17,322 nucleotides of DNA. Origin: Pseudomonadota bacterium (GTDB lineage Bacteria; Pseudomonadota; Gammaproteobacteria; UBA5335). Under the pieces are notes generated by a model. That model was not told the origin of the DNA. It did not search any database and saw only the letters and a list, made by a program, of their open reading frames with translations. How positions within the stretch are numbered: the first letter of the stretch is position 1; every line of letters starts with the position of its first letter. The DNA lies in NCBI GenBank assembly GCA_002862965.1, contig PKCW01000255.1, positions 1-17,322 on the forward strand, written 5' to 3'. The position numbers and the translations under genes are program-made. Below are positions 4,928 through 11,182 of the stretch, piece by piece.

Positions 4928-7900
4928 TCAGCGCGTCCAGTGGGAGCGACGACGCAGGTCGAGGGTGTGGGGATACTCGCGGTTGGTTTCCTCGGGGGGC
5001 GGTTGCATCGGGCCCAGGGGATGGCCTTCGGGCAGGAAATGGGCAAGCCGCGCGATGTCGGGCGGTACTTCCAGGGCCCCTGGCGTGTGACCGAATCCCC
5101 AGAAGCGGCTGACCCGGCGTGTCTCGGCGGCGTAGGCATTGATGGGGTACACATCGTAGCTGCGTCCGCCCGGATGGGCCACATGATAGGTGCAGCCGCC
5201 GATGGAGCGCCCGTTCCAGGTGTCGACGATGTCGAACACCAGCGGTGAATGAGAGCCGATGGTGGGATGCAGTGCCGACGGCGGCTGCCAGGCGCGGTAG
5301 CGCACCCCCGCAACGTATTCGCCATGCGTGCCGGTGTTGTGCAAGGGCACGCGGCGGCCATTGCAGGCGATGACGTAGCGGGCATCGGTGAGACCGGTCA
5401 GCCGCACCTGCAGGCGCTCCACCGAGGAGTCCACGAATCGCGCCGTACCGAGATTGGTCGATTCCTCGCCCAGCACATGCCAGGGCTCCAGCGCGGCGCG
5501 CAACTCCAGATGGATGTCGTCGACCCGCACTTCGCCGTAGTGCGGGAAACGGAATTCCAGGAACGGCGCCAGCCAGTCGGGGTGGAACGGGAAGCCGGCC
5601 TCGCGCATGAAGCGCACGACGTCCTGCATGTCCTGCCAGATGAAGTGGGGCAGCATGAAGCGGTCGTGGAGCGAGGTTCCCCAGCGCACCAGATCGTGCC
5701 GGTACGGGCGTTGCCAGAAATGCGCCACGAGGGTGCGCAGGAGCAGCATCTGCACCAGACTCATGCGAGCATGCGGCGGCATCTCGAAGGCCCGCAGTTC
5801 GACCAGTCCGAGCCGGCCGCGCTGGCTGTCCGGCGAATAGAGCTTGTCGATGCAGAATTCCGCCCGATGCGTGTTTCCGGTGAGATCGACGAGCAGATTG
5901 CGCAGCAGGCGGTCGACCAGCCAAGGTTGGGGGACTTCGCCCTGCGGCATTTCCTTGAAGGCGATATCGAGTTCGTACAGGCTTTCGACGCGTGCCTCGT
6001 CCACCCGCGGCGCTTGGCTGGTCGGGCCGATGAACAGGCCCGAGAAGAGGTAGCTCATTGCGGGATGGTGTTGCCAGAAGGTGATCAGACTGCGCAGCAG
6101 GTCGGGCCGGCGCAGGAAAGGGCTGTCGGCCGGCGTCGCGCCGCCCAGGGTGACGTGATTGCCGCCGCCCGTACCGGTGTGTCGGCCGTCGAGCATGAAT
6201 TTTTCGGTGCCAAGGCGCGTCTGCCGCGCTTCCTCGTAGAGCGTTTCGGTGATCTCGACCATTTCGTCCCAGCGCTCGGCAGGATGGACGTTGACCTCGA
6301 TGACGCCGGGGTCGGGCGTGATGTGCAGACGCTTGAGACGCCAGTCGTGCGGCGGCTCGTAACCTTCCAGCCGCACCGGAATGCCGAGTTGGGCCGCTGT
6401 CGCCTCGATGCAGCCGAGCAGGTCGAGATAGTGTTCCAGATAGCTGACCGGGGGCAGGAAGACGTGCAGGCAGCCGCCGCGCGGCTCCAGGCATAGGGCT
6501 GTGCGAAACACCTCGATCCAGCGGTTCGTCTGCGGAGCATCGGCCTGATCCATGGCGCTGATGGCCGGTGGCGCGGGGGTCCAACTGCTGTAATGCCGGG
6601 CGACTTCGCCTTGCAGCGCATCGAGCGGCGGGCGCGGTTCGAAGGGGCTCGGTTCAGGAACGACTTCTCGCCGTTCGCGCTGTTGCGCGCTCCAAGGCAG
6701 ACGATCCAGCGGCAAGCGCAATCCCATGGGCGAGTCGCCTGGCATCAGAAACATGGTGTCGCGCCGGAACGGCCAATGCACGCTCTGCCAGCGGCTCGCG
6801 CTGTAGTTCCACTGCAGCGGCAGGCAGTAGCCGACCGGCATGCCGAGCCCGCCGGCGAGGATCTGGCGCAGCCGGGCATGATCGGGATGTTGCTTGTCGT
6901 CCAGCTTCAGGACATCGAGATCGATCGGCAGGCTGTCGGATTTCCAGAGGTGATAGAGTGCATCCTCATAACCGGGCTGAACGTGCTCGGCGGCGACCCC
7001 CAACCGGCGGGCCAACTCGCGCCCGAAGCACAGGGCATCGTCGATGCTGCAACCGTAGTCCTTGTCATCTTCGGCCAGCAGTTCGGGGCGCCGCCAAAGC
7101 GGTTGCCCGTCGGTTCTCCAAAAGAGCGACAGCGCCCAGCGCGGCAGTTCCTCCCCCGGATACCACTTGCCTTGCCCGATCTGAAAGACGCCGCCGGGGG
7201 CGAAACGGTCACGCAGCCGGCGCAGCAGCACCCCGGCCCGCTCGCGCTTGTGTGGCCCGAGCGCGGCGGTATTCCATTGCGCCGATTCCATGTCGTCCAC
7301 GGACACGAAGGTGGGCTCGCCGCCCAGGGTCAGGCGCACATCTCCCGCCCGCAGCTGTTCATCCACGGCCCGCCCCAGCAGATTGATGGCCTGCCACTGG
7401 TCCTCCGTATACGGCTTGGTTACCCGCGGGTCTTCATGGATGCGCTGCACGGTATTGTGATGCTCGAAGGTCACCACGGTGTCGGAATCGCCCCAGAAGC
7501 TTCCCGAAACCGGGGCAGCGCTCACCGGATCGGGCGTGCAGGCGAGCGGGATGTGCCCCTCGCCCGCAAACAAACCCGAGGTGGGATCCAGACCGACCCA
7601 GCCGGCGCCAGGCACGTAGACCTCGCACCAGGCGTGCAGATCGGTGAAATCGGCCTCTGGGCCGGACGGGCCGTCCAGCGACTTCACATCCGCCGTGAGC
7701 TGGACGAGATAGCCCGACACGAAGCGTGCAGCCAGTCCCAGGTGACGCATGATCTGGACCAGCAACCAGGCCGAATCGCGGCAAGACCCGGTCGCCCTGC
7801 CCAGCGTTTCCTCGCAGGTCTGGACACCCGGCTCCATCCGGACCAGATAGCCGATGTCCCTTTGCAGGCGGCTGTTGAGCTCCACCAGAAAATCGACGAT

Positions 7901-10147: not shown

Positions 10148-11182
10148 ATGCTGTCACGCATGGCCGAAAACATGTACTGGTTCGCCCGCTATCTCGAACG
10201 GGCGGAGAACGTGGCCCGGCTGGTCACGGTGACGACCAACCTGATGCTGGACCTGCCGCGGCAGGTGACGGCGGACTGGGGACCGCTGGTCGACATCACC
10301 GGCAGCCGCGAGGCGTTCATGAAGCGGCACGGCGAGATCAGCGAGCATCGCGTCGTGCAGTTTCTCCTTGCCGACCGCGACAATCCGGGGTCCCTGATCA
10401 GTTCGCTCACCAAGGCGCGCGAGAACCTGCGCACGACGCGCGACATCGTGCCGGCCGAGGCCTGGGAGCAGATCAACCGCATCCACCTCATGGCCCAGGA
10501 CAAGATGGGCGAGGCCTTGTCGCGGCGCGGTCGCCACGAATTCCTGCAGGCGATCGTCGGGCACTGTCAGCAGATCGTCGGATTGCTCGGGGGGGCGATG
10601 AGCCGGGACGAAGCCTACGAGTTCATGCGGCTGGGGCGTTACCTCGAGCGTGCCGACATGACCACCCGCATCCTCGATGTGCGCTCCGGCGATCTGCTCG
10701 TCGAGATTCCCAGCGATCTGATGGCCTATAGCCGCTTGCAATGGATGAGTGTGCTCAAGTCCCTCACGGCCTATCAGATGTACCGGCGGCTGGTAAGGAG
10801 CCGCGTGTCGGGGGTCGACGTGGTGCGCTTCCTGCTGCGTGAGGAGCGCTTCCCACGCTCCTTGCAGGCCTGCATCCGGACCCTCGAGGAAGGCCTTGCG
10901 AAGCTGCCGCATCAGGAGATGCCCCTGCGCGCCGTTGCCCAGTTGAAGAGCCTCCTGCAGCGCGCCGACATCGCGGCGCTGGCGCATGAATCCGGCACCC
11001 TGCACCTCTACATGGATGAGTTGCAGCTCAAGCTGGCGGCTTGCCACAACGCTATCGTCGCCACTTACTTCACTCTGGAGCCGATGGCCGCCCATGTCGC
11101 GCGCCCGCACCCGGCAACGATAGAGCCGGTTCCGCCGCCCGTGCATTCCCCGTCGCAGGCCCAGACGCAGCGCGCGAATTGA
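10148..11182 (+). CDS. Alpha-E domain protein (DUF403)
   Basis: A 344-residue all-helical protein of the alpha-E family, almost always found next to or fused with a circularly permuted ATP-grasp. It starts with the family signature [20 protein letters not shown] (1-20), followed by NVARL. A second charged helix follows in the middle ([19 protein letters not shown], ~159-177), with an acidic/arginine-rich pattern that gives the family its name. The last ~30 residues are Pro-rich and probably disordered. AAGGAG lies 8 nt before the ATG. Biochemical role unknown; prediction in the field is a partner enzyme or scaffold for the ATP-grasp ligase. It has no signal peptide. Confidence 0.93.

Follow-up and report, generated by a model that had tools for sequence, protein, structure and literature searches.

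The stretch of DNA analysed here, hereafter the window, is the 17,322-nucleotide contig PKCW01000255.1 of the gammaproteobacterial assembly GCA_002862965.1 (lineage UBA5335), contig 7 of a 2.3 Mb genome in 330 contigs that is 82% complete. At its centre lie three genes in two divergent units: one encodes a large fusion of a transglutaminase-like domain with a DUF2126 domain (TG-DUF2126), and the other unit, facing it, encodes a circularly permuted (CP) ATP-grasp protein followed after 29 bases by its adjoining alpha-E gene (Table 1). The three genes are a real and conserved instance, probably a functional one, of a known bacterial enzyme set believed to form and cleave amide bonds, and the control DNA suggests that the locus is switched on when nitrogen is short.

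Table 1. Positions of the genes, domains and candidate control elements in the window (aa, amino acids).
Feature	Position	Strand	Remarks
TG-DUF2126 fusion protein	4928..8323	-	ATG start, 1131 aa
Transglutaminase-like part (Bact_transglu_N + Transglut_core; C181, H230, D246)	7583..8308	-	Pfam, alignments
DUF2126 domain, putative amidoligase per Pfam	4952..7477	-	Pfam
Stand-alone circularly permuted ATP-grasp, 486 aa, putative ATP/metal residues E165, N167, K326, K373, G379, G380, G382, D433 intact	8658..10118	+	
alpha-E protein, 344 aa, two ER motifs (E17-R18, E167-R168)	10148..11182	+	
Sigma54-type -24/-12 promoter candidate for TG-DUF2126	8390..8405	-	10/12 positions, GG and GC in place, ~80 bp upstream of ATG
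NtrC-like palindrome candidate	8479..8495	.	10/12 positions, about 75-90 bp upstream of the sigma54-type site
Second genus-conserved block just upstream of the ATP-grasp gene	8590..8606	+	15/17 columns invariant, best in the spacer

The fusion protein was resolved by Pfam into Bact_transglu_N (residues 6-83), Transglut_core (133-247) and DUF2126 (283-1124, 1334 bits), and its closest database relative, also of 1131 amino acids, is 97% identical. In profile alignments, residues C181, H230 and D246 fall on the Cys, His and Asp columns of the solved transglutaminase-like structures 3isr (E 1.3e-5) and 6g49 (E 1.2e-4). This triad was followed in alignment A2, comprising 63 sequences (the window protein, 53 of 81 long locus proteins and 9 of 120 listed homologues), where H230 and D246 are present in every sequence and C181 in 62; the sole loss is a tandem second TG-DUF2126 in which Pro replaces C181 (L189 13366-16671). 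Among 216 distinct TG-DUF2126 sequences the three residues were counted in 214, 215 and 215, respectively, the exceptions being that second L189 copy and L176, whose stretch was shortened by the script and which has all three residues in A2. Single transglutaminases of the same loci carry each of Cys, His and Asp in 80/80 distinct sequences. The larger part of the fusion is DUF2126, described in the Pfam text as a putative amidoligase. A profile search of the PDB gave significant matches to the transglutaminase part alone, leaving the DUF2126 part without a solved relative, and a Pfam search of the latter at E up to 10 returned DUF2126 itself, a weak GBD_Hemicentin match and nothing else. Among the relatives, a 713-residue DUF2126 paralogue without the central section of the profile was seen in two loci (L093 4038-6176 and L097 4102-6240), with a separate transglutaminase gene on the opposite strand.

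The ATP-grasp protein matches CP_ATPgrasp_2 at 548 bits and the alpha-E protein its family at 303 bits. Nine putative active-site positions (E165, N167, D324, K326, K373, G379, G380, G382 and D433) are each conserved in 71/71 stand-alone ATP-grasps, window copy included; E165 and N167 we take to be metal holders, going by glutathionylspermidine synthetase. A near full-length match was obtained to PDB entry 3n6x (525 bits by itself, 731 with the family profile), a likeness in sequence to a protein whose name, 'putative glutathionylspermidine synthase', was given by its depositors. The alpha-E protein is internally duplicated: the N-terminal part aligns with the C-terminal part over 128 columns (probability 99.0, E 5e-18), and the duplication coincides with the two ER motifs. 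No solved relative of alpha-E was found by sequence, the one weak match being the entry sc-apCC-6-SLLA (E 0.37). The window alpha-E shares 93% identity with that of a record named 'Candidatus Macondimonas sp.'; the NCBI taxonomy assigns this genus to Ectothiorhodospiraceae. An earlier note on this DNA, made from its letters, had assigned the three genes to these families and judged both the triad and the ATP-grasp to be intact; these assignments held, gene boundaries included, and the loss of active-site residues in close relatives that it named as contrary evidence was found neither in the ATP-grasp nor at C181.

Co-occurrence was assessed with Fisher tests in 114 genomes, namely the source genome, its three congeners, two further members of the family, three further members of the order and the rest from the class; because the genomes are related and some are incomplete, the p-values treat them as more independent than they are, and an absence is weak evidence. 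ATP-grasp and alpha-E occur in an identical set of 33 genomes. DUF2126 was found in 24 of these 33 versus 0/81 others, Bact_transglu_N in 27/33 versus 1/81, and Anbu in 25/33 versus 4/81 (E 1e-15 or better, one match partial). Peptidase_Mx was found in 18/33 versus 1/81 above 190 bits, a line drawn after the scores were seen, and in 19/33 versus 6/81 at E 0.001. The joint occurrence of the three genes, on which the earlier note had staked its proposal, is thus strong, yet nine of the 33 ATP-grasp genomes lack DUF2126.

Further parts of the set were sought elsewhere in the source genome. Anbu is encoded on contig 25 (4330-5055) with Thr1, Asp17 and Lys32 in place, and it matches 5loy ('Designed Anbu Protein', E 1.5e-75) and four entries named Anbu or Peptidase (9.5e-61 to 3.3e-56). 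It is unlikely to be stray contamination, since it is 86 and 90% identical to the Anbu of two congeners (G002 and G003). On contig 25 itself, neither an ATP-grasp nor an alpha-E nor a transglutaminase was detected. The C-terminal part of a Peptidase_Mx homologue, with its HESGH motif, lies on contig 142 (L203), where it is preceded by a repetitive open frame in place of the usual zinc ribbon, possibly through misassembly. No second CP ATP-grasp, Bact_transglu_N or Transglut_core was found outside the window in this 82%-complete genome; one of the three congeners (G002) has a second transglutaminase. In five other loci (L094, L100, L101, L105 and L158), a zinc-ribbon and Peptidase_Mx protein (PF10005, PF15887) adjoins ATP-grasp/alpha-E.

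The arrangement of the locus was compared with 80 named TG-DUF2126 loci (L121-L200), 39 of which hold an unfused ATP-grasp/alpha-E pair. Of these pairs, 12 (one from the window's own genus) lie upstream of TG-DUF2126 and divergent from it, 18 upstream in the same orientation and 9 at other places; the division into two divergent units that the earlier note had singled out is correct as a description and is no special feature of this DNA. Clustering of neighbouring open reading frames (ORFs) of at least 330 bases, in which 25 groups were listed and two examples annotated, revealed no widely shared extra gene, the largest group covering 8 loci; one group of 5 loci gave the lead to Peptidase_Mx.

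A fused ATP-grasp-alpha-E protein lies near TG-DUF2126 in 53 of the 80 named loci, usually with a separate transglutaminase following it, and fused copies also occur in L072, L074, L078, L085, L091, L103, L106, L109 and L114. The fused proteins resemble the window pair in having both domains in the same order, the ATP-grasp part giving a profile match at E 7e-145, and 21/21 tested, of 51 full-length copies in the named loci, match CP_ATPgrasp_2. They differ in forming a separate clade: in a tree of 132 ATP-grasp domains, built by a quick method and with some long branches, fused and stand-alone copies split at one branch with 100% support, except for L123, a fused copy cut by a contig end, which was moved by hand to the fused side for the residue counts. 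In a single alignment of both kinds, N167, K326 and D433 are each retained in 0/61 fused copies and E165 in 1/61, versus 71/71 for all four in the stand-alone proteins, and within the glycine loop G379 is left in 3, G380 in 20 and G382 in 5 of the 61. The putative active site is not wholly lost, with Lys at K373 in 46/61, R435 in 60/61 and D473 in 61/61. The fused copies are predicted to be inactive as ligases and likely constitute a pseudoenzyme clade spread over several phyla, an observation that may be new, no literature search having been dedicated to it. No fused paralogue was found in the four genomes of the window's genus (G000-G003), and two other genera of the family carry one. A different state was seen in L106 (7480-9171), where a second ATP-grasp/alpha-E pair in pieces with stops adjoins an intact TG-DUF2126.

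Sigma54-type sites were scanned for within 200 bases upstream of gene starts guessed from ORFs and domain positions, with GG and GC fixed and at least 10 of 12 positions matching; the other ORFs of these loci, if 600 bases or longer, served as controls. After dropping repeats of the same 80 upstream bases (raw counts 29/65 and 18/79), such sites precede 29/64 ATP-grasp genes standing first in their unit and 17/78 TG-DUF2126 genes, versus 15/661 control genes, 0/15 fused copies and 0/15 single transglutaminases. Within 300 bases on the gene's own strand the counts are 30/63 and 18/78, where shuffles expect 0.6 per set; on the opposite strand, 8/63 and 7/78 also exceed the shuffles, as divergent promoters would give. 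The effect is kept on clustering at 75% identity (about 20.9/49 and 8.7/55) and recurs in plasmid-borne loci not used before, 4/11 of which have a site (p 0.00013), these eleven being chosen among the 60 matches listed, of 117 plasmid records with a match. NtrC-like palindromes matching at 10/12 positions precede 14/62 ATP-grasp and 11/77 TG-DUF2126 genes versus 16/654 controls; for Anbu they are somewhat enriched at 9/12 (11/30 versus 103/654) and not at 10/12 (1/30). The enrichment of sigma54-type sites across lineages may be new, a claim for which no dedicated literature search was made.

For the window itself, scanning the whole sequence for the sigma54 pattern gave chance numbers (21 found, 20.7 expected); weight attaches only to the gene-start scan and to the comparison within the genus. 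Across four genomes of the genus, the longest invariant run in the spacer, 11 columns, falls within the sigma54-type block and is equalled in 0/5000 column shuffles; this block has 14 invariant columns per 17 to the 15 of the block beside the ATP-grasp gene. At the place aligned to 8479-8495, two congeners (G001 and G002) carry a palindrome with other letters. A Sigma54_DBD gene is present in the genome.

Published observations, taken here from the accessible portions of the papers cited, bear on the same response. In Burkholderia cenocepacia H111, genes I35_5080-5083 of the NtrC/sigma54 regulon are described as DUF404/407, DUF403, transglutaminase-like and large transglutaminase-like, and are listed at -8.2, -9.4, -9.4 and -6.0, respectively, in an ntrC mutant (PMC5491218). 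The likeness to the window, drawn by description and not by sequence, extends to the sigma54/NtrC control that the window spacer also suggests, and the window differs in having no separate small transglutaminase. In Pseudomonas putida KT2442, PP2685-PP2687 are up in nitrogen limitation (PMC3325844); PP2686 alone is named transglutaminase-like in that source, and we infer that its neighbours belong to the ATP-grasp/alpha-E set. A metagenome correlation study places domains of the set near urea metabolism (PMC3597751). COG3484, a proteasome-type protease, appears in a survey of sigma54 regulons (PMC12316311), a listing that the Anbu count obtained here does not echo.

The locus can further be set beside the ATP-grasp/alpha-E/transglutaminase/Anbu operon predicted by Iyer et al. 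2009, as summarised in PMC5666114 and PMC6376114. Both have an ATP-grasp and an alpha-E of these families side by side and a transglutaminase-like protein with them, and Anbu is encoded in the genome; here, Anbu lies on another contig instead of in the same operon, and the transglutaminase forms a fusion with DUF2126 whose gene is transcribed divergently. The features of an amidoligase-type set, that is a CP ATP-grasp with conserved residues, an adjacent alpha-E and a transglutaminase-like protein with Cys, His and Asp, are all found at the locus.

Taken together, the locus is predicted to be the functional core of a system that ligates amide bonds and is switched on in nitrogen shortage, a reading to which we give about an even chance. 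In low nitrogen, NtrC and sigma54 would induce the genes; the ATP-grasp, invariably partnered by alpha-E, would activate a carboxylate as an acyl phosphate and join it to an amine; DUF2126 may act as a second ligase on the same product; and the transglutaminase-like cysteine domain, Anbu and the metallopeptidase could cut or transfer the amide bonds so formed. The product is more likely a small amine- or peptide-type conjugate than a protein tag. A wider proposition is held tentatively and with more doubt than belief: that the set is a widespread sigma54/NtrC nitrogen-starvation pathway with an active ATP-grasp/alpha-E core, to which many lineages add a dead fused ATP-grasp-alpha-E as a regulatory or scaffold subunit, while the window's genus would keep the active arm only.

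Several observations weigh against the reading of a nitrogen-controlled ligase core. No sigma54-type site was detected for most units (35/64 ATP-grasp, 61/78 TG-DUF2126) or for 7 of the 11 plasmid loci, six of these seven being alphaproteobacterial, and Anbu units show no enrichment (1/31). Within the window the sigma54-type site is imperfect, two of the four genus spacers compared are near-identical, and the NtrC-like palindrome is near chance (4 matches with 1.45 expected, a number reached by 11/200 shuffles). On the side of chemistry, DUF2126 has reportedly been placed with glutamine-synthetase-like ligases by Iyer et al. 2009, which no calculation here confirmed. An hhalign comparison with 30 ORFs assigned to glutamine synthetase, drawn from PF00120 loci by motif and length and run with the profile doubled for permutation, gave no similarity. 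The loose Pfam and PDB profile searches showed none either, and likeness to glutamine synthetase by sequence was set aside. The ligase role of DUF2126 accordingly rests on its Pfam description. In the portions of PMC6376114 available, the ATP-grasp of the Yersinia bercovieri Anbu operon, whose sequence was not compared here, releases phosphate from ATP without added substrate and shows no stimulation by Gln, Glu or Anbu; hydrolysis of ATP is not distinguished from ligation, and the Anbu protein shows no peptidase activity.

Three other explanations were considered. Several hydrolase families co-occur with the ligases, as would be expected if ATP-grasp and DUF2126 tagged proteins with a peptide or amino acid that is removed or degraded by Anbu, the transglutaminase and the metallopeptidase, which is one published guess, as summarised in PMC6376114 and PMC5666114. 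We regard such peptide tagging as unlikely, given the missing Anbu peptidase activity and the lack of specific interactions among the Y. bercovieri operon proteins in the accessible text of PMC6376114, and given that no conserved small peptide was noticed near the set in the neighbour clustering, where a short tag would be missed because of the 330-base limit. The phosphate release in Y. bercovieri and the nitrogen-limitation response of such genes (PMC5491218, PMC3325844) would also suit an ATP-grasp/alpha-E that is an ATP hydrolase or kinase, with the transglutaminase-like protein alone freeing ammonia from peptides for nitrogen scavenging. The conservation of all the putative ATP and metal residues and the depositors' name of the solved relative 3n6x both point to ligation instead, and we hold this explanation to be quite improbable.

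Still less credence is given to the proposal of the earlier note, namely that the locus is minimal and complete in itself, does without Anbu, and sets a single transglutaminase-type amidase against a single ligase/alpha-E pair. In its favour are the failure to find a second transglutaminase or CP ATP-grasp in the 82%-complete genome and the nine genomes with ATP-grasp/alpha-E and no DUF2126, from which it is seen that smaller sets exist. The statement behind it, that neither Anbu nor a second transglutaminase is present, is right for the window, and for this 82%-complete assembly it stands for the transglutaminase and falls for Anbu. With Anbu and part of a Peptidase_Mx homologue elsewhere in the genome, the set is dispersed, not minimal, and the proposal was rejected, its content being largely refuted by the genome search. 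The balance of one ligase by one amidase is likewise not supported: DUF2126 is annotated as a putative amidoligase, through which the set may hold two ligase activities and one transglutaminase-like domain.

The nitrogen-controlled ligase core, the reading preferred here, bears on a family whose product was predicted as an amide in 2009 and was given as unknown in the 2017 papers, as far as these were accessible (PMC5666114, PMC6376114). The window adds a further example of the known set; among the papers listed by our literature search, whose coverage excluded most subscription journals, none named the product, and the word DUF2126 gave no paper, in keeping with the earlier note's remark that no product is established. 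The regulatory result points to nitrogen limitation as the time to look for the product, and the apparently dead paralogue tells which copy to purify. The genome search indicates that Anbu need not adjoin the set, and the window's genus, that a fused paralogue is not required for the set to be maintained; if the active arm is indeed all that this genus keeps, it would offer the simplest version in which to find the amide product.

Some further observations concern the surroundings and relatives of the set. The rest of the window (1-4860 and 11128-17322) holds ordinary-looking neighbours, namely an RND pump, a membrane-fusion protein, DUF2863, ALAD, shikimate dehydrogenase, SprT-like, ferredoxin-like, aspartate kinase, tRNA-Ser, DUF4399 and Kdo kinase-like genes, and an Rfam scan returned the tRNA and no other RNA family. 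In genome G057 a transglutaminase fused to a class II glutamine amidotransferase (GATase) domain lies beside ATP-grasp/alpha-E (L099 6069-7847), with the same domains in 119 of the 120 listed relatives. A Met-Cys start, which would supply the usual amidotransferase nucleophile, occurs in 0/120; that nucleophile seems absent in this group, and the hint of glutamine chemistry was dropped. A 414-residue protein without a Pfam match (L151 18645-19886) belongs to a group near the set in 6/80 named loci. In Sinorhizobium meliloti SM11, nodule competitiveness was associated with a regulatory region next to a gene of the present ATP-grasp family (COG2308), according to the accessible part of PMC8407117. 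The metagenomic clone jj117, with ATP-grasp, alpha-E, transglutaminase and protease genes, is listed as antinematode in a review table that cites a thesis (PMC7764037).

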